Assembly: GCA_947595345.1 (NCBI GenBank) | Contig: CANQEQ010000004.1 | Coordinates: forward strand, 1-33,892 | Direction of reading: 5' to 3' | DNA from: an uncultured Bacilli bacterium | GTDB taxonomy: Bacteria; Bacillota_I; Bacilli_A; RF39; UBA660 | DNA length: 33,892 nt | Shown here: positions 3,157-31,116 of the stretch, one piece after another | Position numbering within the stretch: the stretch's first letter is position 1 | Layout: the number at the start of each line of letters is the position of its first letter | Program-made: the position numbers and the translations under genes | Notes under the pieces: generated by a model | Seen by the model: the letters and a program-made list of their open reading frames with translations, nothing else | The model's database searches: none | Told to the model about the DNA's origin: nothing

Positions 3157-3178
3157 AAAAAAGAAGAGTTTAATCTTC
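3157..3178 (-). terminator. Terminator of the type IV secretion operon
   Basis: GAAGA (3174-3178) pairs with TCTTC (3163-3167) and is followed by a T tract (3157-3162) on the minus strand. The stop codon of the VirD4-like gene lies in the loop. The stem is short but placed exactly at the operon end. Confidence 0.6.
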
Positions 3179-5677
3179 AAAGAAGTCATCAAAAAACTCA
3201 TCATCACTTACTTCTTTATATTTATTCTCTTCTTTTAAATCCATATTAGGTTTAATATTTTCTGGATTAGCTTCTAAACTCTTCTCTTTTATTTTATTTA
3301 TTAACTCATCAATATCACGAGGTGTATTATCCTCTTTAACATTATTTGAAGAATTACTAGCTTTAAAATCGGCATCATTAAAAGTATCTAAGAAATCTTT
3401 AAAAGACTCTTTATAATTACTTTCTTCGGACTTAACTTCAGGTTCTTTAATAGTAGAAGCTTTTTCTTCATTTCTAACATCATCATTACCTTTTAGCATA
3501 TTATCAAACTTAGTAAAATCAAATTTAGAAGTATAATCAGCTTCTCCTAAGAAATTAATCTTTTCCTTATTTTTTTCAGTATCTCTATTTGAAACATTCT
3601 CAGTTTCTATAACATTTTTGTCCTTAAAATTATTCGTAGTTTCTATATTATTATTTAAAGGAGCCTCTTTTTTCATATCAGCTAATTTCTTTTCTTCAGT
3701 TGTAATCTTATCTTTAGTTGCTTTTTCTTCTTCAGCTAGTTTTTTCTCCTCAGCTTCTATTTCAGCAATTTTAGCATCCAAATTTTCTAGAATTTTATCA
3801 ACATCAATCTTAGGTTCATTACTAGTTCTTCTAGGTTCATCAAATAAACCTGGAAAAGGTGGCCTAATCCCTCCGGACGTGCCGAATGGATTAGCTGAAA
3901 ATCCTCCTGGAAAACTTCCAGGAATTCCTCCGAATGGACTACCAGATTCCTTTTTCTTTTCAGTTACATATTCCTTAACATTAAATACTTTTACTTCTCT
4001 TGTTTCTCTTGGTTTAATATCCCGAGGGTCAGCTTCTTTAAATTTTCTTCCCCAATCCATTTGATAATCTGGAGTTAATTTAGTTTTAAAAGGAGGCATT
4101 CTAAGACGTCTTACAATTACTTCATTCATTTTTAATTTTTGTAAATCACTTATTGTAATTAAAGGTCTAGTTTCTTCCTTTTCTTTCTCGTCTTTTCCTG
4201 TTTTAACTTTTACTTCTCCACACATCTTACTAATCTCTTCTAAAGCCCTAAGCTCCGTTGAAATTAAGTAAATCATATTGCCACAGTTACCTTTAATAGT
4301 TTCAGCATTTTGTTCACCATAAACTTCATTCAATTGAGCAAAGTTCTGAATAATCATCGTAAAACGCATCAAACGACTACGGGCAGCTGTAATCATAGAA
4401 GTAACATCTTTTAAAGGTGGCATATTAGCAAACTCATCAAGTAAGAAATTTGTACGAACAGGAAGTGAACCACCATTGTTTTGGGCTACATCTATCAAAG
4501 TTTCATATACTTGCTTAGTAAAAATAGTAACTAAAGAATGATAAGTTTTCTTTTCATCTTGAATAACAACAAATACAGCAGTCTTTTCTCTACCAATATC
4601 TTCCATATTAAAATCACTATAAGATAACATCTCAGATAAAACAGCTCTACTTGCAAACAATTTAATTTTTTGTTTAAATACAGCTAAAATACTCATTTTA
4701 GTATCACTTGGAGCTAAAATTGTACTTGAAGCACTTACATATTCAGGACTATTAGGATCTTTTGTCTTAAAATACTCCTTAATATAAGTACTACCACCAA
4801 TTTTCTCTTCTCCAACTGTTGTCATTAAACTAATACTGTTTAAATTAATCTCTTCTTCTTTGGCATCTTTGAATAAAGCTAAGCACAAACCAGAAAAATA
4901 ATCAGCTGAAGTTCTTTCCCAGAAAGGATCAGAATTTTTATTAGATTCATCATACAAAATATTAGCAGCTAAATCTTCTAATAACTCAATAGCTTTATCT
5001 TGATTACCATTTTTCCATAATTTATAAGGAAGGGCTAAGGGATTCCAAGCATTACCTTTATTAGGTTCACGGAAATTAAGTAAAATTATTTTATACCCTT
5101 TGGCTCTTAACATATTACTTTTCTTTTTATATAATTCACCTTTAGGATCGGTTATAATCATTGATTCACCATGTTTAGATAAAAGCTCTATCATAGGATA
5201 AATTATAGCTGTTGTTTTTCCTGAACCAGTTGAACCAATTACCAAATTATGATACTCACTATTATCAACATAAATCTTTTTACCATTATTAATTAAAGCA
5301 ATTCCAGCATAATCAGAATGAACATCAGTTGGTAAGACTAACTTAAGCTCTTTCTTCATATCTTTTTCATCGCACCATTTACTATATCCATCACTTGAGG
5401 ATTTTTTTTCAGTTGAAATTCCAAACCCCTCTTCAAATTCAAAGAAATAACTTTTACAACTAATTAAAAGGGCGATTAAAGCTGCAAAATAGAAAACAAT
5501 AGTTGACATCAACAAATCACCACTAAAAGCCGGAAGTGGATTAAGACCTGTAAAATCACCAGTTGATGTAACACTTGATAAATTTGATATAGCAACAGCT
5601 ACAATATAAAGAAGAACTAAACAAATAATTAGAAATTTCTTCATATCCGAAGTATCAAAACGCAACTTTAATTTCAT
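3170..5677 (-). CDS. VirD4/TraG-like T4SS coupling ATPase
   Basis: An 835-residue coupling protein. Two N-terminal membrane segments (about 14-34 and 54-75) precede a RecA-like ATPase domain. Its Walker A is GSTGSGKT near 148-155 and its Walker B is LLDEFAN near 410-417. VirD4 proteins dock cargo, usually a relaxase-DNA complex, and feed it to the channel. After about residue 565 the protein changes character: a Gly/Pro/Phe-rich stretch, a Glu/Lys coiled coil (about 620-670), then a long acidic, Asn/Ser-rich tail ending in EFFDDFFED. This roughly 270-residue tail is unusual and could be a cargo or chaperone docking segment. It is the last gene of the operon, 16 bases after the lipoprotein gene. 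Assignment of the ATPase is firm; the cargo is unknown because no relaxase is encoded nearby. Confidence 0.9.
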   Translation of the reverse strand: MKLKLRFDTSDMKKFLIICLVLLYIVAVAISNLSSVTSTGDFTGLNPLPAFSGDLLMSTIVFYFAALIALLISCKSYFFEFEEGFGISTEKKSSSDGYSKWCDEKDMKKELKLVLPTDVHSDYAGIALINNGKKIYVDNSEYHNLVIGSTGSGKTTAIIYPMIELLSKHGESMIITDPKGELYKKKSNMLRAKGYKIILLNFREPNKGNAWNPLALPYKLWKNGNQDKAIELLEDLAANILYDESNKNSDPFWERTSADYFSGLCLALFKDAKEEEINLNSISLMTTVGEEKIGGSTYIKEYFKTKDPNSPEYVSASSTILAPSDTKMSILAVFKQKIKLFASRAVLSEMLSYSDFNMEDIGREKTAVFVVIQDEKKTYHSLVTIFTKQVYETLIDVAQNNGGSLPVRTNFLLDEFANMPPLKDVTSMITAARSRLMRFTMIIQNFAQLNEVYGEQNAETIKGNCGNMIYLISTELRALEEISKMCGEVKVKTGKDEKEKEETRPLITISDLQKLKMNEVIVRRLRMPPFKTKLTPDYQMDWGRKFKEADPRDIKPRETREVKVFNVKEYVTEKKKESGSPFGGIPGSFPGGFSANPFGTSGGIRPPFPGLFDEPRRTSNEPKIDVDKILENLDAKIAEIEAEEKKLAEEEKATKDKITTEEKKLADMKKEAPLNNNIETTNNFKDKNVIETENVSNRDTEKNKEKINFLGEADYTSKFDFTKFDNMLKGNDDVRNEEKASTIKEPEVKSEESNYKESFKDFLDTFNDADFKASNSSNNVKEDNTPRDIDELINKIKEKSLEANPENIKPNMDLKEENKYKEVSDDEFFDDFFED

Positions 5678-5693
5678 TTTTCATCAACCTTTC

Positions 5694-6401
5694 CTAAATT
5701 TTATTATTCTTTTTATTTTTCTTAACTAAATACCTTATTATTAAAATCAAAACAACAACCAACAAGCAAAGTATTCCAATTGATATATACATATATAAAT
5801 TATACACGTAAATTTTAGTTTTATCAAATGTTATTTTTAATTCTTCTTCTTTGGAAGCCTCAGTTATTTTCCACTTATAAGTATTCGTTTTTTTATCAAT
5901 CTCCGAAGCATTACTATCTACTACTTGATATGGTACTTTAATATTAATCATTAAATTAGAAATTGGATAACCATTATCTGTTTCATCTTCAATATAGGGA
6001 ATAAAGTTCTTAGCTTGAATTGTAATTAAATTGCCATCTACAATACTTTCTATATTTTCAAAGGAAATATTTTTAAAAACTGTTGTTTTAGTATAAGAAT
6101 CTATTGAATTATATTCTTTCTTAGCTAAAATACCTGGGTAATAAACATCCTCCTCTACCATGCTATAATCATAACCATTATCTTTAAGAGGTTTAATAAG
6201 TTCTCCATTATCATATATCCTTTTTATAATTGTTTTAGGATATTCTTTATAAAAAATATTAAAATATTCTTCTGTTGCTGTTATAAAAACTTCCTCTTTA
6301 ACACTTAAATCTTTATTAATCTCTAAGCTATAATTAGCTGATGCACAGCCTGTTATAAAAAATGGTACTACTAAAATTAAGATTAACTTGTTTAATTTCA
6401 T
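5694..6401 (-). CDS. Lipoprotein with C-terminal membrane helix, T4SS-associated
   Basis: 235 residues. The N-terminus is a lipoprotein signal with FITGC, so Cys19 is the predicted lipidated residue. The middle (about 25-195) is a beta-rich extracellular domain, followed by a membrane helix (about 203-225) and a short basic cytoplasmic end. The layout resembles LppM/DUF3153-type surface lipoproteins, but I do not recognise the family with certainty. It lies between the wall-hydrolase gene (11 bases upstream) and virD4 (16 bases downstream), so it probably belongs to the secretion apparatus, for example as an envelope scaffold. Anchoring at both ends would be unusual. Confidence 0.55.
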   Translation of the reverse strand: MKLNKLILILVVPFFITGCASANYSLEINKDLSVKEEVFITATEEYFNIFYKEYPKTIIKRIYDNGELIKPLKDNGYDYSMVEEDVYYPGILAKKEYNSIDSYTKTTVFKNISFENIESIVDGNLITIQAKNFIPYIEDETDNGYPISNLMINIKVPYQVVDSNASEIDKKTNTYKWKITEASKEEELKITFDKTKIYVYNLYMYISIGILCLLVVVLILIIRYLVKKNKKNNKI

Positions 6402-6412
6402 TTTTCCTCCTT

Positions 6413-8890
6413 TTAGTTATTTGAAAGAACCATAAAAGCTGGATTATTTACCCATTTTGCTATATCAGTTGCAAAATCTGCCCAATAGTTATCACGTGAT
6501 GCATTTCTTGTTGCTGGGTCCCATACTAATACTTTAGTTTTTCCACCTTCCGTTTTAACTCCAACTAAAGCAATATAATGTCCTGAGTCTGTTGAATATC
6601 TTGCTCCTTGACCACTATTAGGTGCAATTCTTGCTACAACAACTGAATGACCACTTGCTAAATCACTTAACATTTTATTAATCGTTGTTGTATCATTTTT
6701 ATTAACAGAATAAGCTGATAATCCGTATTCTTTAGCTGCCGATATTGGGTAAGTATACCGGCTACCACTACCTGTACACTTTCCAACTTCTTTTAGTTTA
6801 TTACTAACATCTAAAGGTGTAATTCTTTGATTAGTAAGTAAAGATACGGCAATTGCAGTTGAAGCAACACTACAACCTGATGCCGAAATTGTTCCACCTT
6901 CACAGAAACTATTAGCACCTTTATAATCAGTTTGGAGATAATGATATTCTTCGTTTAAATTTACTTGTCCATTATAATTATTAGTTGTTTCATAATATAA
7001 ACCTTCACGAATATTTATCAAATCAAAATTAGAATAATATTTATTTAAAATTTGCTCATAAGTCATACCATTTCTAGAATCAGCTAAAGCTTCGGTTTGA
7101 CCCATACAATCGCCACCATGGCAGTATGACATATTCTGATAATAATTTCCACCTTTTAATTGGTCACCACTTGTGAAAGTTTCAGCTGTTACACCTTTTT
7201 GAACCATTACCACACCATAAATTTCAGCTAAAACATCATCCATGAATTTATTTTGAGCTTCATTCCAAGGCCTATGATTTCCAGCCGTTATTCCAAATCG
7301 CTTAAGTCCACTATAAGCTGTTCCAAATTCATCGCCTCGATTAGCATAAGTACAACCATTCTTGACATCACAAGAAACTAAACGACAGTTTCCCGTTGGA
7401 AAGTTTATATCTTGAACCCCCGGATAAAAATCTACATTAAAGCTTCCTAACATATACGTTAAAGTCGCAACTGTAAATGCCTTTACTCCTTCTTTTTCAG
7501 CTTCGTTCAAGGAATCTCTACCAAGTTCTCCTTCAACTGCTCCTTTTAAGTATTCAGTCATACTAAAATACTCCGGATAATTTGTTCCAGCATTTATATT
7601 TCTATCATTTGAAAAAACTTTTTTTCCACGTTCATTTATGAAAGTTGAGTATTTCTGCTTACATGTCTGTAAAAATATTCGCATTGAATCGCCTAAAAAG
7701 GCTTGATTAGTATTTTTTTCTAACAATTGTCTTGCTATTTCTGAAAATTCAAATATATTTTTAACTAATTTTTCTTTATTGGCTACACTTGTATCATTGC
7801 CTAAAACATCTTTATAATAAGAAGCTAAAAAACTACTATTAACTAATTTATTATAAAATGTTCCATTTTCTTTAAAATCAGTACTATAACTTCCATTATT
7901 TTCAGTCACCATCAAATTAGCAACCTCTTCTATACGATTTGATGCTAATTTAAAATCTACTTCATTGGAATTTTCAACATCAGCAGTTGAAGAATAAAAT
8001 CTATATAAAAGAGTTGCATTTAATAAATATTTATCAAGATATACACCATAATCACTTGTAAATTTCGTAATAGTAGAGTTAATCTTTGCATAATATTCTT
8101 TCTCTTGTTGTTGTTTATCTCCTGTATTATAGACATAAAATGGGTTATCACTATTACTTGAATTTAAACCTAAAAAAGGTGAAATTATCAATGTAGGCTC
8201 CGAAAAAAGTATTGCAATTAAAAGAACAATTACTAATATTCCACCACCAAATACTATTATAGGTAATGACTTAATTAATAATAATATTTTTCCTACACCA
8301 CTAACTGTTCCTTCAATCGATTCTTCAACACTAGGCTCATTTTCATCTTTTACATCTTCATCATTAGAATCTGAATTTTTATCTTCTATATCATTATTAT
8401 TGTTATCATTATCTGAATCAGAATTTTCATTATCAAAAGGATTACCTAGAAAACTTCTTAATATATGAGACCTATTTCTATTTTTTAAAGCCCTAGGAAT
8501 ATTATCTTTATTTTTATTAATTTTACTTGGTTGATTATTATTAGCTTTAGGCCTTAAATCATTTTTTCCACTATCAATAGAAGGTGGATTTCGTCTAGCC
8601 CCTTGAGGAACTCTAGTTGCTTTAGTACCTACTCTATTTGGAATAGGATTTTGGCCTTTTGTAGGTTGATTGTTTAAATTAGAACCTACTTGAATATTAT
8701 TCGGAGTATCTAATTCTGGATTAAATCCTCTATTATAAGGTACTTGATTAAAATTATTATTAATTTGATTATTAAAATTAGAAGGAGCACTCCTATTAGG
8801 AGCCCCCCCTCTTTGATTTGGAGTCGTACTCCTATTATTAATATTTCTATTGGTTTGATTATTCATTTGGTTATTATTCATACGACTCAC
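6413..8890 (-). CDS. T4SS wall-remodelling protein: SpoIID-like domain plus C39-type peptidase
   Basis: 825 residues. Residues 1-190 are Asn/Gln/Pro-rich and then acidic, apparently disordered and cytoplasmic. One membrane helix lies at about 200-235 and the rest is extracellular. Residues about 440-625 match the SpoIID/LytB lytic transglycosylase pattern. EYLKGAVEGELG carries the candidate catalytic Glu, AFTVATLTYMLG matches the usual KAQAVAARTYAL, and HGGDCMGQ is followed by NGMTYEQILNKYYS. Residues about 665-825 are a papain-like C39-type peptidase with Cys near 672 (SGCSVAS), His near 769 (SGHYIALVG) and Asp near 788 (VWDPATRN). Gram-positive T4SS normally encode an SLT-CHAP or SLT-NlpC protein here (the VirB1/TraG role). 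This gene has that position but different domains. It would cut glycan strands and peptide bonds to let the channel through. The SpoIID call rests on motif recall, not a profile search. Confidence 0.75.
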   Translation of the reverse strand: MSRMNNNQMNNQTNRNINNRSTTPNQRGGAPNRSAPSNFNNQINNNFNQVPYNRGFNPELDTPNNIQVGSNLNNQPTKGQNPIPNRVGTKATRVPQGARRNPPSIDSGKNDLRPKANNNQPSKINKNKDNIPRALKNRNRSHILRSFLGNPFDNENSDSDNDNNNNDIEDKNSDSNDEDVKDENEPSVEESIEGTVSGVGKILLLIKSLPIIVFGGGILVIVLLIAILFSEPTLIISPFLGLNSSNSDNPFYVYNTGDKQQQEKEYYAKINSTITKFTSDYGVYLDKYLLNATLLYRFYSSTADVENSNEVDFKLASNRIEEVANLMVTENNGSYSTDFKENGTFYNKLVNSSFLASYYKDVLGNDTSVANKEKLVKNIFEFSEIARQLLEKNTNQAFLGDSMRIFLQTCKQKYSTFINERGKKVFSNDRNINAGTNYPEYFSMTEYLKGAVEGELGRDSLNEAEKEGVKAFTVATLTYMLGSFNVDFYPGVQDINFPTGNCRLVSCDVKNGCTYANRGDEFGTAYSGLKRFGITAGNHRPWNEAQNKFMDDVLAEIYGVVMVQKGVTAETFTSGDQLKGGNYYQNMSYCHGGDCMGQTEALADSRNGMTYEQILNKYYSNFDLINIREGLYYETTNNYNGQVNLNEEYHYLQTDYKGANSFCEGGTISASGCSVASTAIAVSLLTNQRITPLDVSNKLKEVGKCTGSGSRYTYPISAAKEYGLSAYSVNKNDTTTINKMLSDLASGHSVVVARIAPNSGQGARYSTDSGHYIALVGVKTEGGKTKVLVWDPATRNASRDNYWADFATDIAKWVNNPAFMVLSNN

Positions 8891-8902
8891 CTGCCTTTAC
8901 TA

Positions 8903-10690
8903 CTATAATCCTCCACCAGAGCCAAAGGAATCTAACTCATCTTGAGTTACAACAACATCTATTTGCATACGTCTTGAACCACAGACAAATAGAGCTTGCC
9001 CTTGAGAATATCTTTTAATACTTTCTACTTCATTTTCATTTAAGTCAACTAAGTAAGATAAATCTTCAACTGCTTGTTTACGAAGTTGCATTATCATATA
9101 ATATGATGCATTATCAAATATAGCTTTTCCTTGAACTATTACATCTTGGTCTGAAAAATCACTTGGTTGTTGTGTAATAATTATTGTACCTGTATTGTAC
9201 TTGCGACTTCTTCTTTGAACTTGAGCTAAGAAATCAGCTCCTAAAACATTTTTTCCACCAAGCAAAACATGTGCTTCATCTACCATTAAAATAGTATCCC
9301 GGCTTTTATCAAGACATAATCCCCAAGCAAACTTTAATATATTAAAGAATAAAGCATTTTTAATATTAGTATCTTGATTCATTAATTCTTTTATATTAAA
9401 TACTATATAATTACTATCACGTCTAATTGTTGTATGACCATTGAAATAATAACTAAGTTCTCTAACAAATGGTCTTACTTTAAGTTCCAAACGTTCCATA
9501 ACATCACGTTCATGCGTCTTTTCTGTTAAAGATGTTAATCTTCCTCTAATTGTAGCATAAACATCACTAAAAGTTGGAAAATCTTCGCTTGTTTTATTCA
9601 TAAAATTAGTATCAAAATTAATATCAAAACGACGATAAGTATCTTGGACAATTTCACTAAATAAAGTTTGAACATCCTCTTCTATATCAGGATAGTAATA
9701 ACGCATAAAGGCTTTTAAAAATTGTAAGGTTCTTGTAAGAACTGTATGACCAAGTCCTTGAGCTATTTCTTCTTCATCAACATCTAATATAATTTCAAGG
9801 GGATTAATCATACCAAATTGTCCACCTTTTCCAAGGTCAACACTATCTCCACCAAACATTCTTGTCATTTCTTCAAGTTCGTTTTCAGGGTCAATTGCTA
9901 CAATTTGACAACCATTACGAATATGTCCTCTAAGTAATAATTTAGCAGCTGTTGATTTACCTGAACCAGAACCACCTAGAATAATCATATTAGCATTATT
10001 TCTATTAGTTTCTTTACGATATTTATATAAAAATTGATTAAATAAAACTACACCACCTGAAAAATCTACACCTATTAAATTAGATAAACCAGGGTCTTTT
10101 AAAGAATCAAATACATAAGGATACATTCCAGCAATAGTTATACTTGGAATAGGTGTTCCTATTCTCTCTTCTATTTTTTGTTTAGGGAAAATTGGTAAAA
10201 TTGATTTTAAAATTGTTTCTTGTTCAAATCTTAAAGTTACAGCTCTAAGTTCCATTGAATCTAAATAATTTTTTACATTAGTTTTTTTAAGTTCTAATTC
10301 TTCTCTTGAATCAGCTGTTATCATGATATGCATTTGAAAATCAAAAATCATTGATTGATTAGCTGCTAACATAGAAACGAAATATTCCAAAGATTCAAAA
10401 TCTTGACGAATTCTCTCTTGCATAGTTCTATCTTTTTCTTCTTGATAACGTTGTTTATAATCAGCAATTTGCTTGTTAATCATTTTTTGAAGCATTGAAA
10501 ATGGAACTGGAATATGTTTAATTACTACTTTTATACCAGCAATATTAGTAAGTTCAGCTAAATAACCTGGAGTAATAAATTTAGGATATGATACAACTGT
10601 TAAAATTGTTGCATATTTATCACTTATATTAAAATCACTTGGATTGAATTGTAAACCTTTAGGTGCTATTTCACTTTTAAATATACTCAT
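8903..10690 (-). CDS. VirB4-like T4SS ATPase (TraE/TrsE type)
   Basis: 595 residues. The N-terminal part (1-200) includes KYATILTVVSYPKFITPGYL, matching the start of Gram-positive VirB4 proteins. The ATPase domain has Walker A GGSGSGKST near 238-246 and Walker B ILMVDEAHVL near 466-475, followed by the STIIITQQPSDF-type sensor region. VirB4 powers assembly of and transport through the secretion channel from the cytoplasmic face. The start overlaps the stop of the upstream gene by 4 bases (ATGA, 10687-10690), so the two are translationally coupled. The 595 residues plus the 201-residue upstream protein together equal a typical long VirB4, but separate TrsD and TrsE genes are also known in staphylococcal conjugative plasmids. 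Confidence 0.92.
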   Translation of the reverse strand: MSIFKSEIAPKGLQFNPSDFNISDKYATILTVVSYPKFITPGYLAELTNIAGIKVVIKHIPVPFSMLQKMINKQIADYKQRYQEEKDRTMQERIRQDFESLEYFVSMLAANQSMIFDFQMHIMITADSREELELKKTNVKNYLDSMELRAVTLRFEQETILKSILPIFPKQKIEERIGTPIPSITIAGMYPYVFDSLKDPGLSNLIGVDFSGGVVLFNQFLYKYRKETNRNNANMIILGGSGSGKSTAAKLLLRGHIRNGCQIVAIDPENELEEMTRMFGGDSVDLGKGGQFGMINPLEIILDVDEEEIAQGLGHTVLTRTLQFLKAFMRYYYPDIEEDVQTLFSEIVQDTYRRFDINFDTNFMNKTSEDFPTFSDVYATIRGRLTSLTEKTHERDVMERLELKVRPFVRELSYYFNGHTTIRRDSNYIVFNIKELMNQDTNIKNALFFNILKFAWGLCLDKSRDTILMVDEAHVLLGGKNVLGADFLAQVQRRSRKYNTGTIIITQQPSDFSDQDVIVQGKAIFDNASYYMIMQLRKQAVEDLSYLVDLNENEVESIKRYSQGQALFVCGSRRMQIDVVVTQDELDSFGSGGGL

Positions 10691-13902: not shown

Positions 13903-13951
13903 ATTTTCCTTAATTACTTTTATTATTTATACTATTTTTTAGCAAACGAAT

Positions 13952-13993
13952 AATATCTAAAGTTCAATTTAATTAAAATAAACTTCAGATATT
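13952..13993. repeat. 13-base inverted repeat next to the small RNA end
   Basis: The arms 13952-13964 (AATATCTAAAGTT) and 13981-13993 (AACTTCAGATATT) pair with one mismatch across a 16-base AT loop. It directly abuts the hairpin at 13994-14030. There is no T tract, so it is not an obvious terminator. It could be an operator, an RNA stem or a second 3' hairpin. It lies in the 500-base gene-free stretch between tsf and the T4SS operon. Confidence 0.5.
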
Positions 13994-14117
13994 AATAATA
14001 AAACTAGAGGATTACTCTAGCTTTATTATTTCCTGTTATGGTCGGAATCACCAGCTTTTTTATGCTACAAGTAGCATTATTATTATATGCCGAAAGGCAT
14101 AACATAATTACTTATGT
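13990..14117 (-). ncRNA. Candidate free-standing small RNA (unknown class), about 125 nt
   Basis: The stretch starts just after a strong promoter (14124-14153) and ends at a 16-base stem (13994-14009 with 14015-14030). Between them, on the minus strand, are several stems. They are ACATAA/TTATGT near the 5' end; ATGCC/GGCAT (14087-14100) with a UUUC loop; ATGCTA/TAGCAT with a CUUG loop (about 14063-14078) followed by six A; and a long-range GTTATG/CATAAC pair (14098-14103 with 14035-14040), which competes with the second hairpin. A conserved-looking unpaired segment, GCTGGTGATTCCGACC, lies between. No open reading frame of note is present. I do not recognise the class (not tmRNA, RNase P, 6S or SRP by motif). 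The plus strand could fold the same way, but only the minus strand has a clear promoter. Confidence 0.5.
13994..14030 (-). terminator. 3' hairpin of the small RNA
   Basis: A 16-base stem with one G-U pair and a 5-base loop: AATAATAAAGCTAGAG (14015-14030) pairs with CTCTAGTTTTATTATT (13994-14009). The 3' arm is T-rich but no uninterrupted T tract follows, so it is a probable rather than certain terminator. Confidence 0.5.
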
Positions 14118-14123
14118 GAATAA

Positions 14124-26306: not shown

Positions 26307-27320
26307 TTAATCATTACTTGGAATTAAACCAAAGCCAGTTACAACCCTACGACCATTTGAAATTGATTGACCAAATACATTCTTAGGATTATTTACAAGT
26401 TTACCATCAACTACCATTTGAGATGATGTACCACCATCAAGATTAGCAGCATTATAAGCTCCATATAAAACTAAAGTATCTACAACTTCTTTCATAGTAG
26501 GTCCACTTCCATGAGTTCCTTCAGTTGCTAAGAATAAAATTACTCCATCTTTTCTTTGAGCAATTGCAACACGAGCAGCTCTATCATAACCACCTACGGA
26601 AGATTTGTATTTAATTGTTTCCCCATTGACAATTAAGAAAGGTCCAAATTGAATTCCATCACGCATTCCCATTTCAATTGCTTCTTCACCAGTTGCATAA
26701 GTCAAAAGAAGTTTATTATCCTCAGTTAAACCAATTATATTTTGTTTAGAATTATTTTCTGAAAAAGCAATTTCTCCATCTTTAATAACATAACCAAGTG
26801 GAATATCACTTCCCCAACCATCAGGGTCTTTAAATCCACCAGCATTTATACAAACTCTACCACCATATCTAGCACACATTTTTAAAATTGTTTCTTGGCC
26901 TGAACCTGTATTAAAGGTTTTACTACTTATTAATTTAACATCTTCAGGGTGATAAATAGCCACTAAATGTGCATTATATTTTCCAACTTTAACTTTTAAA
27001 TACTTATAATCTTGATTTCCATTTTCTCTTTTTAAAATTGCTTCATCATATTCATTATCATAAGTATCTTTCTCACCAGTATCAATTACAATATCGTCTA
27101 GTTTAATATCTTCTGAAACCGGAATAAAATTATTTAAGTCTAAAATTTCTTTAACTGTTTTTTCACTATAAAAGGTATAGGCAATATATTGATGTGATTT
27201 AGTTATCATAGCAGTATTTACTAAAACATTTCTAAATTCAGCATAAGGTCCATAGAAAAGTACAAAACAAATAATAGCTAAAACGTCAACTAAAATAAAT
27301 AAAATTGTTGTCTTTCTCAT
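26307..27320 (-). CDS. Membrane-anchored NAGPA-type phosphodiester glycosidase
   Basis: 337 residues. An uncleaved signal or membrane helix at about 5-25 is followed by an extracellular NAGPA domain (about 100-335). Diagnostic blocks are RVCINAGGFKDP, the IGLTEDNKLLL region, DGIQFGPFLIVNG, EGTHGSGPTMKEV and NAANLDGGTSSQMVV, ending VVTGFGLIP. The family cleaves GlcNAc-1-phosphodiester-type bonds. Bacterial members act on cell-surface polysaccharides or teichoic-type polymers. The start codon lies 1 base after the stop of the 419-residue membrane protein, so the two are cotranscribed. The substrate is not determined. Confidence 0.8.
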   Translation of the reverse strand: MRKTTILFILVDVLAIICFVLFYGPYAEFRNVLVNTAMITKSHQYIAYTFYSEKTVKEILDLNNFIPVSEDIKLDDIVIDTGEKDTYDNEYDEAILKRENGNQDYKYLKVKVGKYNAHLVAIYHPEDVKLISSKTFNTGSGQETILKMCARYGGRVCINAGGFKDPDGWGSDIPLGYVIKDGEIAFSENNSKQNIIGLTEDNKLLLTYATGEEAIEMGMRDGIQFGPFLIVNGETIKYKSSVGGYDRAARVAIAQRKDGVILFLATEGTHGSGPTMKEVVDTLVLYGAYNAANLDGGTSSQMVVDGKLVNNPKNVFGQSISNGRRVVTGFGLIPSND

Positions 27321-27321
27321 T

Positions 27322-28581
27322 TTAAGCCTCCACTATAAATGGTGCATATTTACTACCATTACCACTTATGATTTCTAAATCTTTCTTTAGTCCTAAACAA
27401 GGTCTTACATTTCTTTTAGTATTAACTTTACTTGAAACTAATGAGCCATTATATAAGTAAACTTTATTATCTAAAGTAGTACTTAAAAAGTAATTTTTTA
27501 AAGAACTATTAAATTTAAAATCTTCTACACTTAAAATCCCAACTTTACTACTAAGAGCCCCAAATTTAACTTCTTTTAATAAATCTTGATATTTAATTTC
27601 TTTTAAGTAAATTTCTTCTAAGTATTTCTTTAAACTAGAATCTTGATAAGTATTTTTACTATTATCAAATATTTGATTTTTAATTAATTTATTGCTTTCA
27701 ACTTTTAAATAATCTTCTCCAACTTCATATACAATGTAAATATCGTCATTAATATCTAAATAAGTTCCTACTCCTATTTTCTTAGTTTCTTTTACCCGAT
27801 ATGGATTATCAATTGAACCATCACCAGCCGTTAATATAGTTGTGTTTTTTAAAGTAATAACCGGTTTTATTTGATACATTTTAGTAACATCAGCTAAAGA
27901 AACTGAAGTACCATGCGAATACCAAGCCTCATCTTCACTTTGATTATATAACCATATAAAATCATTTTCTGAAGTTAAATACGTTCCACTTTCTGTTAAA
28001 GTATTCAAGAAATCCGTAATACCAAGCAATCTTACATAATTATTTGTATTAGGAGTATTACAACTAGCCTCACTTATTTCAGTAACTTTAGGTTCACATA
28101 CCGTTGTTTTTTCTAAAGTTGTTGTATCTAAATTTTCTACAAATTTCGTGTTTAAATACTTATTAATATAAGCTTCTTCATAAGGTTTATACGAAGTATC
28201 CCAATTTAATTTATTTAAGTAATCATCTAAAACTATATCAATTGTTTTATCAGCATTTATTTTTAAAATTCTAAAAACCATATTAGAATATATTAAATAA
28301 TTATTTACATCATGTCCTTTATAAAGATAATTACCATTACTTATATATAATCCATCGCCTTCATAAGCTAAAGAAGAGTTTGATATAATTGCCGTTGATA
28401 AATTTGTTAAAACTTCCCCTTTTTCTCCTTTTGGATTATATACTCTATAATATTTTACTAATCTATATCCATAAAATCCAAAGCATCCAAGTATAAAAAC
28501 TAAACTAACAATACAAAAAATAGTTTGAACACGGGGAGCTTTTATAACTTTTTCCTTTTTTTCTTTCTTTCTTTTTTTCAT
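27322..28581 (-). CDS. Type II membrane protein with repeated surface module
   Basis: 419 residues. A Lys-rich cytoplasmic start (1-17) and a membrane helix (about 19-41) are followed by a large extracellular part built of two similar modules. Each begins with a block about how the protein reads its own state (NNYLIYSNMVFRILKIN; GVGTYLDINDDIYIVYEVG) and ends with VRPCLGL or KPVITL plus a Gly-rich GDGSIDNPYRV or GNGSKYAPFIV. The same module type forms the surface protein at 32761-33892 (GNGTMEDPYTV). I do not know a function. The module belongs to proteins widespread in gut Bacillota and may be a carbohydrate- or protein-binding domain. Cysteines near 162-177 could form a disulfide. Cotranscribed with the NAGPA protein. 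Confidence 0.55.
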   Translation of the reverse strand: MKKRKKEKKEKVIKAPRVQTIFCIVSLVFILGCFGFYGYRLVKYYRVYNPKGEKGEVLTNLSTAIISNSSLAYEGDGLYISNGNYLYKGHDVNNYLIYSNMVFRILKINADKTIDIVLDDYLNKLNWDTSYKPYEEAYINKYLNTKFVENLDTTTLEKTTVCEPKVTEISEASCNTPNTNNYVRLLGITDFLNTLTESGTYLTSENDFIWLYNQSEDEAWYSHGTSVSLADVTKMYQIKPVITLKNTTILTAGDGSIDNPYRVKETKKIGVGTYLDINDDIYIVYEVGEDYLKVESNKLIKNQIFDNSKNTYQDSSLKKYLEEIYLKEIKYQDLLKEVKFGALSSKVGILSVEDFKFNSSLKNYFLSTTLDNKVYLYNGSLVSSKVNTKRNVRPCLGLKKDLEIISGNGSKYAPFIVEA

Positions 28582-28609
28582 ACATACTCCTTAATATCCC
28601 AATATATTA

Positions 28610-28638
28610 ATTATACAAAAATAATAGGTAAATTTCAA
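28610..28638 (-). promoter_or_regulatory. Promoter of the membrane protein-glycosidase pair
   Basis: TTGAAA (28633-28638), exactly 17 bases, TATAAT (28610-28615) on the minus strand, 29 bases upstream of the start. Together with the hairpin at 28652-28679 it separates these genes from the small RNA upstream. Confidence 0.7.
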
Positions 28639-28649
28639 CATATTTTTCT

Positions 28650-28909
28650 AAAGTAAAAGCACATCTAAATGTGCTTACTCTTAATCTTATGTTATAACAA
28701 TTGTTTATACCTAAGCAATTGTAGAAAACTTAGTAATAAAACCATTACATTTAAGTTTTCTTTATAACGATAAGAAAAATCACCTCCCGAGTTTTGTCAA
28801 TGTATTTTATATTTCTATAGTGAGTTAAATACGACAAAATCAAAAATCATGTAAACTACCTTGTTTACTAAAATATTTCAAATGGAAATATTTTTCTTAT
28901 CATGGACTC
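28650..28909 (-). ncRNA. Candidate free-standing structured RNA, about 255 nt, unknown class
   Basis: This minus-strand unit fills most of the 395-base gap. The first domain is closed by a perfect 12-base long-range stem, GATAAGAAAAAT with ATTTTTCTTATC (28890-28901 with 28769-28780). Inside are two hairpins: 28792-28807 with 28827-28839, and 28851-28856 with 28863-28868. The second domain follows with no gap. GTTATA/TATAAC (28763-28768 with 28691-28696) encloses GAAAACTTA/TAAGTTTTC (28724-28760, with an inner GTAAT/ATTAC) and ACAATTG/CAATTGT (28697-28722). A further hairpin AAATATTTC/GAAATATTT overlaps the first long stem and could compete with it. The only ribosome-binding-like sequence, GGGAGGTGAT, has no usable start codon after it. 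It does not match RNase P, tmRNA, 6S, SRP or a riboswitch I know. Confidence 0.6.
28652..28679 (-). terminator. Terminator of the structured RNA
   Basis: AAGCACAT (28669-28676) pairs with ATGTGCTT (28657-28664) around TTAG, extended by AGT/ACT, followed by TTTTACTTT on the minus strand. Confidence 0.6.
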
Positions 28910-28915
28910 AAGTTT

Positions 28916-28944
28916 ATTATACTATGCCAAGTTTTGATTTGCAA
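28916..28944 (-). promoter_or_regulatory. Promoter of the structured RNA
   Basis: TTGCAA (28939-28944), exactly 17 bases, TATAAT (28916-28921) on the minus strand. The predicted start (about 28908) is only 7 bases before the first long-range stem, as expected for an RNA gene rather than a protein leader. Confidence 0.75.
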
Positions 28945-28977
28945 TTCATATATTTTTAAATTCAACAATTTTACACT

Positions 28978-29646
28978 TTATTTGACATTGTTTGTATTTT
29001 CTACTTTACTTTCTTCTTGTAAACCTAAAACTCTTGAAATAGGAAGCGAAATAATTAACCCTCTAGCTTCTGTTTTAATTCCAGCTTCCTTAGTAATTTC
29101 TTTCATAACATTTTTAGCAATATCCGATTTAACAATATTTAAAACAATATCTTTCTCAGGTTCAATACTTAAATTCATGAAAACTGTTCTACTACTACCA
29201 AGACTTCTACCACTTATAACTGTACCTCCCCCACAGCCTTCTTTTTTAGCAGCACTCATGACTAAATCACTATAACCTTCTTTAACAATTGTAACAACAA
29301 GCTCATATCCTGAATCAAATTTTTCCATTTCTATATCACCCTTTACTAAAGCATCACTTATAAATTTATTAGAACTATTAAGTTCAATTGTAAAAGCTAT
29401 ACCTTTACCAAGTTCTACAATTTTTAATTTAGTTTCTAACTCATGAAATAAAGTATCTGAAATACGAGACGGGATTAAAGAAAAATAAATACTTTTTCTA
29501 ATCTCGTCTAAGCCAAAATACATAAGAACACTTTTAGAAGCCGTCCCACTTCCATAAGTCATAGCATTAAATGTCAACTTATATTTTCTAAATAACATTT
29601 TTAATTTTTTTTCATTATCATATATAATAACTAATAATTTAACCAT
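28978..29646 (-). CDS. Tandem PII-like (GlnB-fold) signalling protein
   Basis: 222 residues with two similar ferredoxin-like halves (about 1-95 and 108-205). The second half, LVVTIVKEGYSDLVMSAAKK followed by EGCGGGTVISGR and later VKSDIAKNVMKEITKEAGI, is the PII-like pattern. The first half, with YGSGTASKSVLMYFGL, is a diverged copy. PII proteins sense nucleotides or 2-oxoglutarate and gate transporters. It lies 3 bases downstream of the DUF1538 membrane gene, and DUF1538/PII-like neighbours are known, so it probably regulates that transporter. The ligand is unknown, and the uridylylated T-loop tyrosine of classical GlnB was not identified. Confidence 0.7.
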   Translation of the reverse strand: MVKLLVIIYDNEKKLKMLFRKYKLTFNAMTYGSGTASKSVLMYFGLDEIRKSIYFSLIPSRISDTLFHELETKLKIVELGKGIAFTIELNSSNKFISDALVKGDIEMEKFDSGYELVVTIVKEGYSDLVMSAAKKEGCGGGTVISGRSLGSSRTVFMNLSIEPEKDIVLNIVKSDIAKNVMKEITKEAGIKTEARGLIISLPISRVLGLQEESKVENTNNVK

Positions 29647-29649
29647 AAA

Positions 29650-31116
29650 TCACCTATAATCAACAATTGTATCATCTAATAAAGTTTTATCATAAGATTT
29701 TCTTTCAACATTATAAATTAATCCTACAATTTCAATTAAAATAATTGGAATAACACTTATTAAAGACATAACTCCAAAAGCTTCTTTTAAATAATTATTA
29801 GAAACTGTTTCAGCTAAACCAATAAGCAAAGGAAGTAAAAAGCTTGAAGTCATATTACCAGCTACCACTCCTCCAGAATCAAAAGCAATTGATAAGAAAT
29901 TGTTTGGAGTAAAGAAAGCTAAAAATACAGCTAAAAAATAAGTTGGTATTAAAAATTCCATAACTGAATAACCATTTAAAACTCTATATAATGATAACAT
30001 AACGGAAATTGAAGTACCTATACAAAGACAAACTTCCAAAAATTTATCTTTAATACCTCCATTTGTAACTTCATTAACATAACTTATTAATACTTTTAAA
30101 GAAGGTTCAATCTTAGATATAAAGTATCCAAATATTCCCCCTATTACTAAAATTAAAAGATGATTAACATTCTCAAAATTTGTTCCTAACATATATCCAA
30201 TTTTAAAGTATCCTACATCTCCCCCAGTTAAAAATAAAGTTATTCCAACTAAAACCATCAAAAGACCAATGGCAATTTTTCTAAATTCTTTTTTCCTTTT
30301 TTGCTTTTTAAAATGTACAAATATTAAATAAAAAATAACTAAAGGTGATAAAGACATGAAAACTTGATAAAAATTACTCCATAAAGTTTCTAAAAAATTA
30401 AGTTTTTTCAAAATTGGGTCTGAATCATAGATAATATTAGGTTTAAATATCAAACCTAAAATTAATACCATAATAATTGGACCAATAGAACAAATTGATA
30501 AAATACCAAATTCAGAATCTTTTTCTTTTTTAGAACGACTTTTAGAAGCAAATGCAACTCCAAAGGCCAAAATAAAAGGTGCTGATATAGCTCCACTTGT
30601 AACTGATGACATGTCAAAAGCAAATGGAATAACGTCCATACTAGAAATTATCATTAAAAGAAAAATCAAAAGATAACCCGAAATAAGTACATACTTAAAT
30701 TCAATTTTCTTTAAAATCCGAAAAATAGCCAGCATTAAAGAAATCCCAATTCCAATTGAAACAGAGATAAGCAAAATCGGAGTTGGAATATTTCCAGCTT
30801 CATAGCCAACAGTTAAAAACTCAGGTTCTAAAACTGTAATAAAAGTTCCAAGTAATAAGCAAGTTACTAAAATAATTGTTAAATTTCCTTTTTTAATTAA
30901 ACTTTTACTAAATTCTTCACCAATTGTATTAAGAGAAATATCAGCTCCGGTTGTAAATAAAGTTAAGCCAATTATAACTAAAATTGAACTTGATAAAAAT
31001 CTAATAATTGTACTTGTATCTATTTTAAAAATAAAACTTAAAACTAAAACTAAAAATATAATTGGTGAAATTCCATAAATAATTTTCTTTAAATTTTCTA
31101 CGATACTCCCGTACAT
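29650..31116 (-). CDS. DUF1538 polytopic membrane transporter-like protein
   Basis: 488 residues with about 12 predicted membrane helices arranged as two homologous halves. Each half carries the DUF1538 signature: IGLTLFTTGADISLNTIGEE in the first and VGITLFLTGGDVGYFKIGYM in the second. Each continues with an EPE/EPS motif (TVLEPEFLTVGYEAG; SKIEPSLKVLISYVNEVT). The later SIAFDSGGVVAGNMTSSF resembles a pore motif. The family is thought to be a transporter, with the substrate unknown. It lies 9 bases after the phosphoglycerate-mutase-like gene and 3 bases before the PII-like gene, so the three form an operon. Confidence 0.8.
   Translation of the reverse strand: MYGSIVENLKKIIYGISPIIFLVLVLSFIFKIDTSTIIRFLSSSILVIIGLTLFTTGADISLNTIGEEFSKSLIKKGNLTIILVTCLLLGTFITVLEPEFLTVGYEAGNIPTPILLISVSIGIGISLMLAIFRILKKIEFKYVLISGYLLIFLLMIISSMDVIPFAFDMSSVTSGAISAPFILAFGVAFASKSRSKKEKDSEFGILSICSIGPIIMVLILGLIFKPNIIYDSDPILKKLNFLETLWSNFYQVFMSLSPLVIFYLIFVHFKKQKRKKEFRKIAIGLLMVLVGITLFLTGGDVGYFKIGYMLGTNFENVNHLLILVIGGIFGYFISKIEPSLKVLISYVNEVTNGGIKDKFLEVCLCIGTSISVMLSLYRVLNGYSVMEFLIPTYFLAVFLAFFTPNNFLSIAFDSGGVVAGNMTSSFLLPLLIGLAETVSNNYLKEAFGVMSLISVIPIILIEIVGLIYNVERKSYDKTLLDDTIVDYR

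Follow-up and report, generated by a model that had tools for sequence, protein, structure and literature searches.

A lineage-specific structured RNA absent from Rfam, with a Shine-Dalgarno-like accessory module, in an uncultured genus of Bacilli

As a general class, trans-acting bacterial small RNAs (sRNAs) combine a conserved 5' end with an intrinsic terminator. Large structured RNAs of Firmicutes include the raiA motif and OLE, and sponge RNAs of the CsrB/RsmZ type carry GGA motifs, in many repeats. To our knowledge, regulatory RNAs have scarcely been described in the lineage of Bacilli considered here, and a literature search for RNAs that mimic Shine-Dalgarno (SD) sites, or for structured RNAs known from this lineage, returned nothing specific. 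The RNA described below resembles the trans-acting sRNAs in its own promoter, conserved 5' tail, structured body, terminator and variable flanking genes; it departs from them in an optional SD-like module and a three-way junction, and it comes without an Rfam family or a target found. Like raiA, OLE and others, it is a structured non-coding RNA of low-GC Firmicutes, but it gives no match to such Rfam models at E values up to 10. 6S RNA (RF00013) is similar in being an independent, single-copy, structured RNA of comparable length in the same genomes, and dissimilar in its long bulged rod. Identity with 6S RNA was rejected because the new RNA does not match the 6S covariance model and this genome has its true 6S RNA at another locus (G000:C70:2136-2320), one of 13 found in the 16 genomes searched.

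The window, i.e., the whole stretch of 33,892 nucleotides that was analysed, has on its minus strand a 396-base gap between protein genes, and this gap almost certainly holds an independent and real RNA gene (Table 1). Reading along the minus strand, TTGCAA is followed by 17 bases, TATAAT, six bases and GAGTCCATGATAAG at 28909, with G28909 the predicted start. This promoter, described in the earlier note as near-perfect, matches the consensus at 10 of 12 positions. In such AT-rich DNA, shuffled sequence yields consensus matches just as often (28 promoter-like sites were found, with 25.7 expected by chance), and homologues had to be compared before the promoter could be accepted. In 18 of 18 homologues the spacer that scores best is 17, and six bases separate the -10 box from GAGTCC in all except G001, where there are seven; spacer and start are thus both kept. 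The terminator predicted to end the unit is present and is the sole terminator-like site within 27000-30500, and the following protein gene does have the separate promoter proposed for it.

Table 1. Features of the RNA gene and its surroundings (window coordinates; homologue counts refer to the RNA and its relatives)
Feature	Position	Strand	Remarks
RNA, ~257 nt, predicted start to terminator end	28653..28909	-	promoter, terminator, fold; homologues in 17/17 genus genomes
222-aa gene, after DUF1538 gene, upstream flank of gap	28978-29646	-
419-aa membrane protein, weak DUF6273 match, downstream flank of gap	27322-28581	-
Upstream direct repeat TGTCAA-N6-TGTAAA at -78, putative activator site	28970..28987	-	15/18 homologues
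-35 box TTGCAA	28939..28944	-
-10 box TATAAT, spacer 17	28916..28921	-
Conserved 5' tail GAGUCCAUGAUAAG	28896..28909	-	GAGUCCAU(U)GAUAA in 16/18
5' arm of 12-bp stem	28890..28901	-	perfect only in G000 and G010
Insert able to form two hairpins	28851..28893	-	in the alignment, only here and in G010
Domain-1 hairpin P1, asymmetric loop	28792..28839	-	inner 6 bp covary
AACUCAC in P1 loop	28820..28826	-	can pair with 5' GAGU or GGUGA
SD-like site GGAGGUGAU (GGAGGTGAT)	28779..28787	-	complementary to canonical 16S 3' end; no start codon
3' arm of 12-bp stem	28769..28780	-
Domain-2 closing helix, 5' strand	28762..28774	-	99% paired
Domain-2 hairpin a	28723..28761	-
Domain-2 hairpin b	28698..28722	-	4/10 pairs with double changes
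Domain-2 closing helix, 3' strand	28686..28697	-
Intrinsic terminator	28655..28676	-	3/7 stem pairs with double changes
Separate promoter of next gene, TTGAAA-17-TATAAT	28610..28638	-	11/12 consensus matches

Upstream of the promoter, 15 of 18 homologues have a direct repeat of the form TGT(C/A)AA-N4..7-TGT(C/A)AA that begins between -76 and -79, where 0.002 occurrences would be expected per 70 nt; G108 has an extra copy at -88, and in this genome the repeat extends into the end of the gene upstream. Similar TGT(C/A)AA repeats were also observed near 6S loci and other promoters.

Homologues were collected by BLAST, by motif patterns and by synteny (the stretch preceding the DUF6273-like gene). 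In the 17 genomes of the genus, BLASTN produced clear matches, full or partial, which together with shared motifs and synteny indicated a single copy in all 17; one further genus has one copy, in G108 (= L044/L065), which brings the set to 18 homologues. In other genera of the order the RNA was not seen by exact motif patterns, which can miss diverged copies, so this phylogenetic range is a lower bound. A covariance model run on the fetched loci recovered its ten seeds and missed the divergent G005 copy. In another genus, L045 has TGAGTCCATTGATAA at ~1501 (-), straight after a TATAAT-like box and ~110 bases before an apparent T-box leader; neither the SD nor ACTCAC was seen there, and the site is a chance occurrence or a degenerate copy. 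A phage origin was also considered and rejected: there were 67 pattern matches on viral contigs, those inspected bore no resemblance to the RNA, and the ones that recurred were nearly identical repeats resembling one protein-coding gene.

The window has no Rfam family at threshold (Rfam 15), and ARAGORN found no tRNA or tmRNA in it. At E values up to 10, the RNA region gave noise only, as did ten homologous loci if a T-box adjoining one of them is set aside. The earlier statement that no known RNA class fits therefore holds for the covariance-model search of the RNA and its ten homologues, and, judged by these comparisons, the family is one that is absent from Rfam, narrowly distributed and lineage-specific. 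A second, strongly structured intergenic region of the window, at 13930-14120 (-) downstream of the EF-Ts gene, folds into several hairpins (z = -7.4, a value reached by 0 of 200 shuffles) and has a promoter-like site, TTGACA-18-TATTAT, at 14153-14124; it too is without an Rfam match and is possibly another RNA of no recognised family.

The genes around the RNA bear on whether it is a leader of the gene that follows. In most genomes of the genus a DUF6273-like gene lies downstream on the same strand, and two alternative folds lie 3 kcal/mol apart, as might suit a cis-acting leader or attenuator of that gene with a conditional, riboswitch-like terminator. Against such a role, the downstream gene has a promoter of its own, G008 and G108 have a convergent gene next to the RNA, and in G012 (L007) the RNA homologue is followed by a T-box and IleRS. 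The terminator is found in short and long forms of the RNA alike, with no anti-terminator pairing conserved, and the DUF6273-like gene occurs in 14 other genera with no such RNA upstream. With neighbours that differ or converge in place of a fixed same-strand gene, a cis-regulatory leader was rejected and is considered very improbable. Elsewhere a sigma-factor-like gene is the neighbour (L008/L009), and in G003 the RNA adjoins a tRNA. The link to DUF1538/NAGPA genes proposed in the earlier note proved to be no more than shared local synteny, which several genomes do not keep. By sequence, then, the RNA has its own promoter and terminator and a conservation independent of its neighbours, as a trans-acting sRNA does.

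Several observations concern the surrounding genes themselves. The T-box leader in L007 (1737-1932) lies directly after the RNA homologue and before the IleRS-like gene, and scores 80 bits, below the gathering score. In the window, the DUF1538 protein (29650-31116) matches both UmpA and UmpB antiporter halves in one chain, below NCBIfam cut-offs, and the 222-aa protein that follows it has no family match. Genes for conjugative transfer (T4SS coupling protein, TraG-like ATPase, C39-like peptidase) at 3170-10690 lie beside housekeeping genes, an arrangement that suggests an integrated element.

The stretch of 264 nt that includes the RNA folds at -61.7 kcal/mol, compared with -41.1 +/- 4.0 for shuffled sequences (z = -5.1; 0 of 200 shuffles as good). 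The 5' tail is GGGUCCAUGAUAAG in G006 and GAGUUCACGAUUAA in G008, the two exceptions to the common form. In hairpin P1 the inner six pairs show double changes at six of six positions, and among 17 sequences they are canonical in 99% of cases with their own partner and in 62% when partners are swapped between species. The second closed domain, with its two hairpins, follows directly on the first, as had been described. Its three-way junction is closed by CUUAU-N-GUUAU / AUAAC-AUAAG, 99% paired in 12 sequences whose strands were aligned by hand; nine of ten positions have changed on both sides, with wholesale replacement in G005 and G013, and the partner-swap values are 0.99 (own) and 0.80 (swapped). 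For the whole structure in ten aligned sequences, the covariation score is 0.211 against 0.118 in shuffles, with 0 of 500 shuffles as high, and also lies above all slid controls; the shuffle control is inflated by relatedness, and the slid controls and partner-swap test agree with it in direction. Own promoter and terminator, homologues and covariation of the whole RNA together bear out the original proposal of an independent structured RNA gene.

That proposal had been built around a perfect 12-base long-range stem, which is indeed present here but is not the main conserved element. The stem (GAUAAGAAAAAU/AUUUUUCUUAUC) belongs to the minimum-free-energy fold of this genome's RNA, and is perfect only in this genome and its closest relative, G010, the two that share the extra 5' insert. 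It is reduced or lost in the other homologues, five of which lack the entire 3' partner. The suggested covariation check, favorable for the RNA as a whole, found no excess in this stem, which has 67% canonical pairs compared with 70% in shuffled columns of ten aligned homologues. The stem was thus rejected as a conserved core, and from the alignment it is a local elaboration. Its 3' arm shares CUUAU with the conserved closing helix of domain 2. Two alternative folds, as anticipated, can be calculated: -58.4 kcal/mol with the 12-bp stem, and -55.4 with the domain-2 closing helix enforced. The fold with the 12-bp stem also ties up the SD, whose predicted mean unpaired probability is 0.15 here and about 0.4-0.6 in most relatives, so that the site is about half occluded in the predicted folds of most species and more so here. 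A conformational switch in this RNA is therefore possible on folding calculations.

Between the two covarying domains sits the SD-like site. GGAGGUGAU is identical in 13 of 13 long forms from two genera, with diverging flanks, and pairs with a generic 16S tail at -18.5 kcal/mol; the 16S 3' end was not found in these draft genomes, and the value refers to the canonical sequence, not to the host's own. The possible pairing with 16S rRNA proposed in the earlier note applies to the long forms, and does not extend to the five homologues from which the site is missing. The long form (~207-320 nt) is found in twelve genomes of the genus and in G108. The short form (~74-101 nt; G002, G003, G006 and G008) consists only of tail, hairpin and terminator, and G001 (~150 nt) lacks the SD and keeps another hairpin. 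Because the SD site and junction are missing from these five shorter homologues (~74-150 nt), the SD is an accessory module, and the shared core comprises the 5' tail, the hairpin (with AACUCAC in its loop, G013 excepted) and the terminator. The long form of the outside genus, a single outgroup, suggests that the SD and junction were lost in some lineages.

An SD-like sequence might announce a tiny translated ORF, and several long forms do have an AUG 16 nt after GGAGG followed by four to six codons. That spacing is too long, and the AUG is replaced by AUA or AUU in G000, G010, G004 and G005. No ATG or GTG lies 4-13 nt after GGAGG in any of the 13 long forms; nine have no start codon at all at that distance, and the others have only scattered TTG. 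Lacking a conserved start codon, a hidden ORF was rejected and is held to be extremely improbable. The exposed GGA recalls the CsrB/RsmZ sponges, but the new RNA has a single such site, extended to nine bases of 16S complementarity. A CsrA sponge was accordingly rejected: one conserved GGA-bearing site, not several in hairpin loops, is present, and it is missing from five homologues.

With leader and coding roles rejected, the simplest reading is that of a trans-acting RNA, and we put at about even the chances that this is a lineage-specific regulatory sRNA with the SD as an accessory module. In the mechanism envisaged for this sRNA, an activator protein would bind the repeat at -78 and switch the RNA on, and the RNA would then act in trans through its exposed 5' tail and loop. 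When the complement of the 5' tail was sought by one pattern, no conserved target emerged, and the other matches were scattered coding hits; since the complement does not recur at a conserved gene, the target may use shorter or looser pairing or may be a protein. The tail and the AACUCAC loop could instead form a protein-recognised pseudoknot, making the RNA a sponge or scaffold that does not pair with mRNA. The near-invariant GAGU and ACUC segments are able to pair, and no conserved antisense target was found, both in keeping with such a role. There is, however, no candidate protein, and ACUCA, present in 17 of 18 homologues, is missing from G013, which keeps GAGU; being invariant where present, the GAGU:ACUC pairing shows no compensatory change. 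We consider a protein-binding RNA unlikely.

In the long form of the proposed sRNA, GGAGGUGAU may dock on the 3' end of 16S rRNA in 30S subunits. Internal pairing would gate this docking: in most species through UCCA:UGGA and UCACU:GGUGA, and here through the longer 5' stem. That the RNA captures 30S subunits in this way, through a perfect start-less SD mimic gated by a conformational switch, is a tentative reading with the odds against it. We are equally doubtful that it serves mainly to bind idle 30S subunits by way of GGAGGUGAU, storing or inhibiting them, with the rest of the molecule as scaffold. The invariance of the site in long forms of two genera with diverging flanks, its position between two covarying domains, and the lack of an ATG or GTG at a usable distance speak for such a role; the five homologues without the site nonetheless keep the 5' tail and hairpin, so SD docking cannot be the shared function.

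A single-copy RNA whose promoter and upstream site vary unusually little, in genomes of ~1.2 Mb, can be expected to serve a specific function. Every examined member of the genus, a group of uncultured gut Bacilli whose genomes are small, has this RNA. If 30S capture were true, it would link ribosome availability to a lineage-specific regulatory RNA whose 5' tail and loop compete for the SD. An SD module that is invariant and start-less, and that is acquired or lost as a whole, makes possible a direct test of RNA-based ribosome capture.
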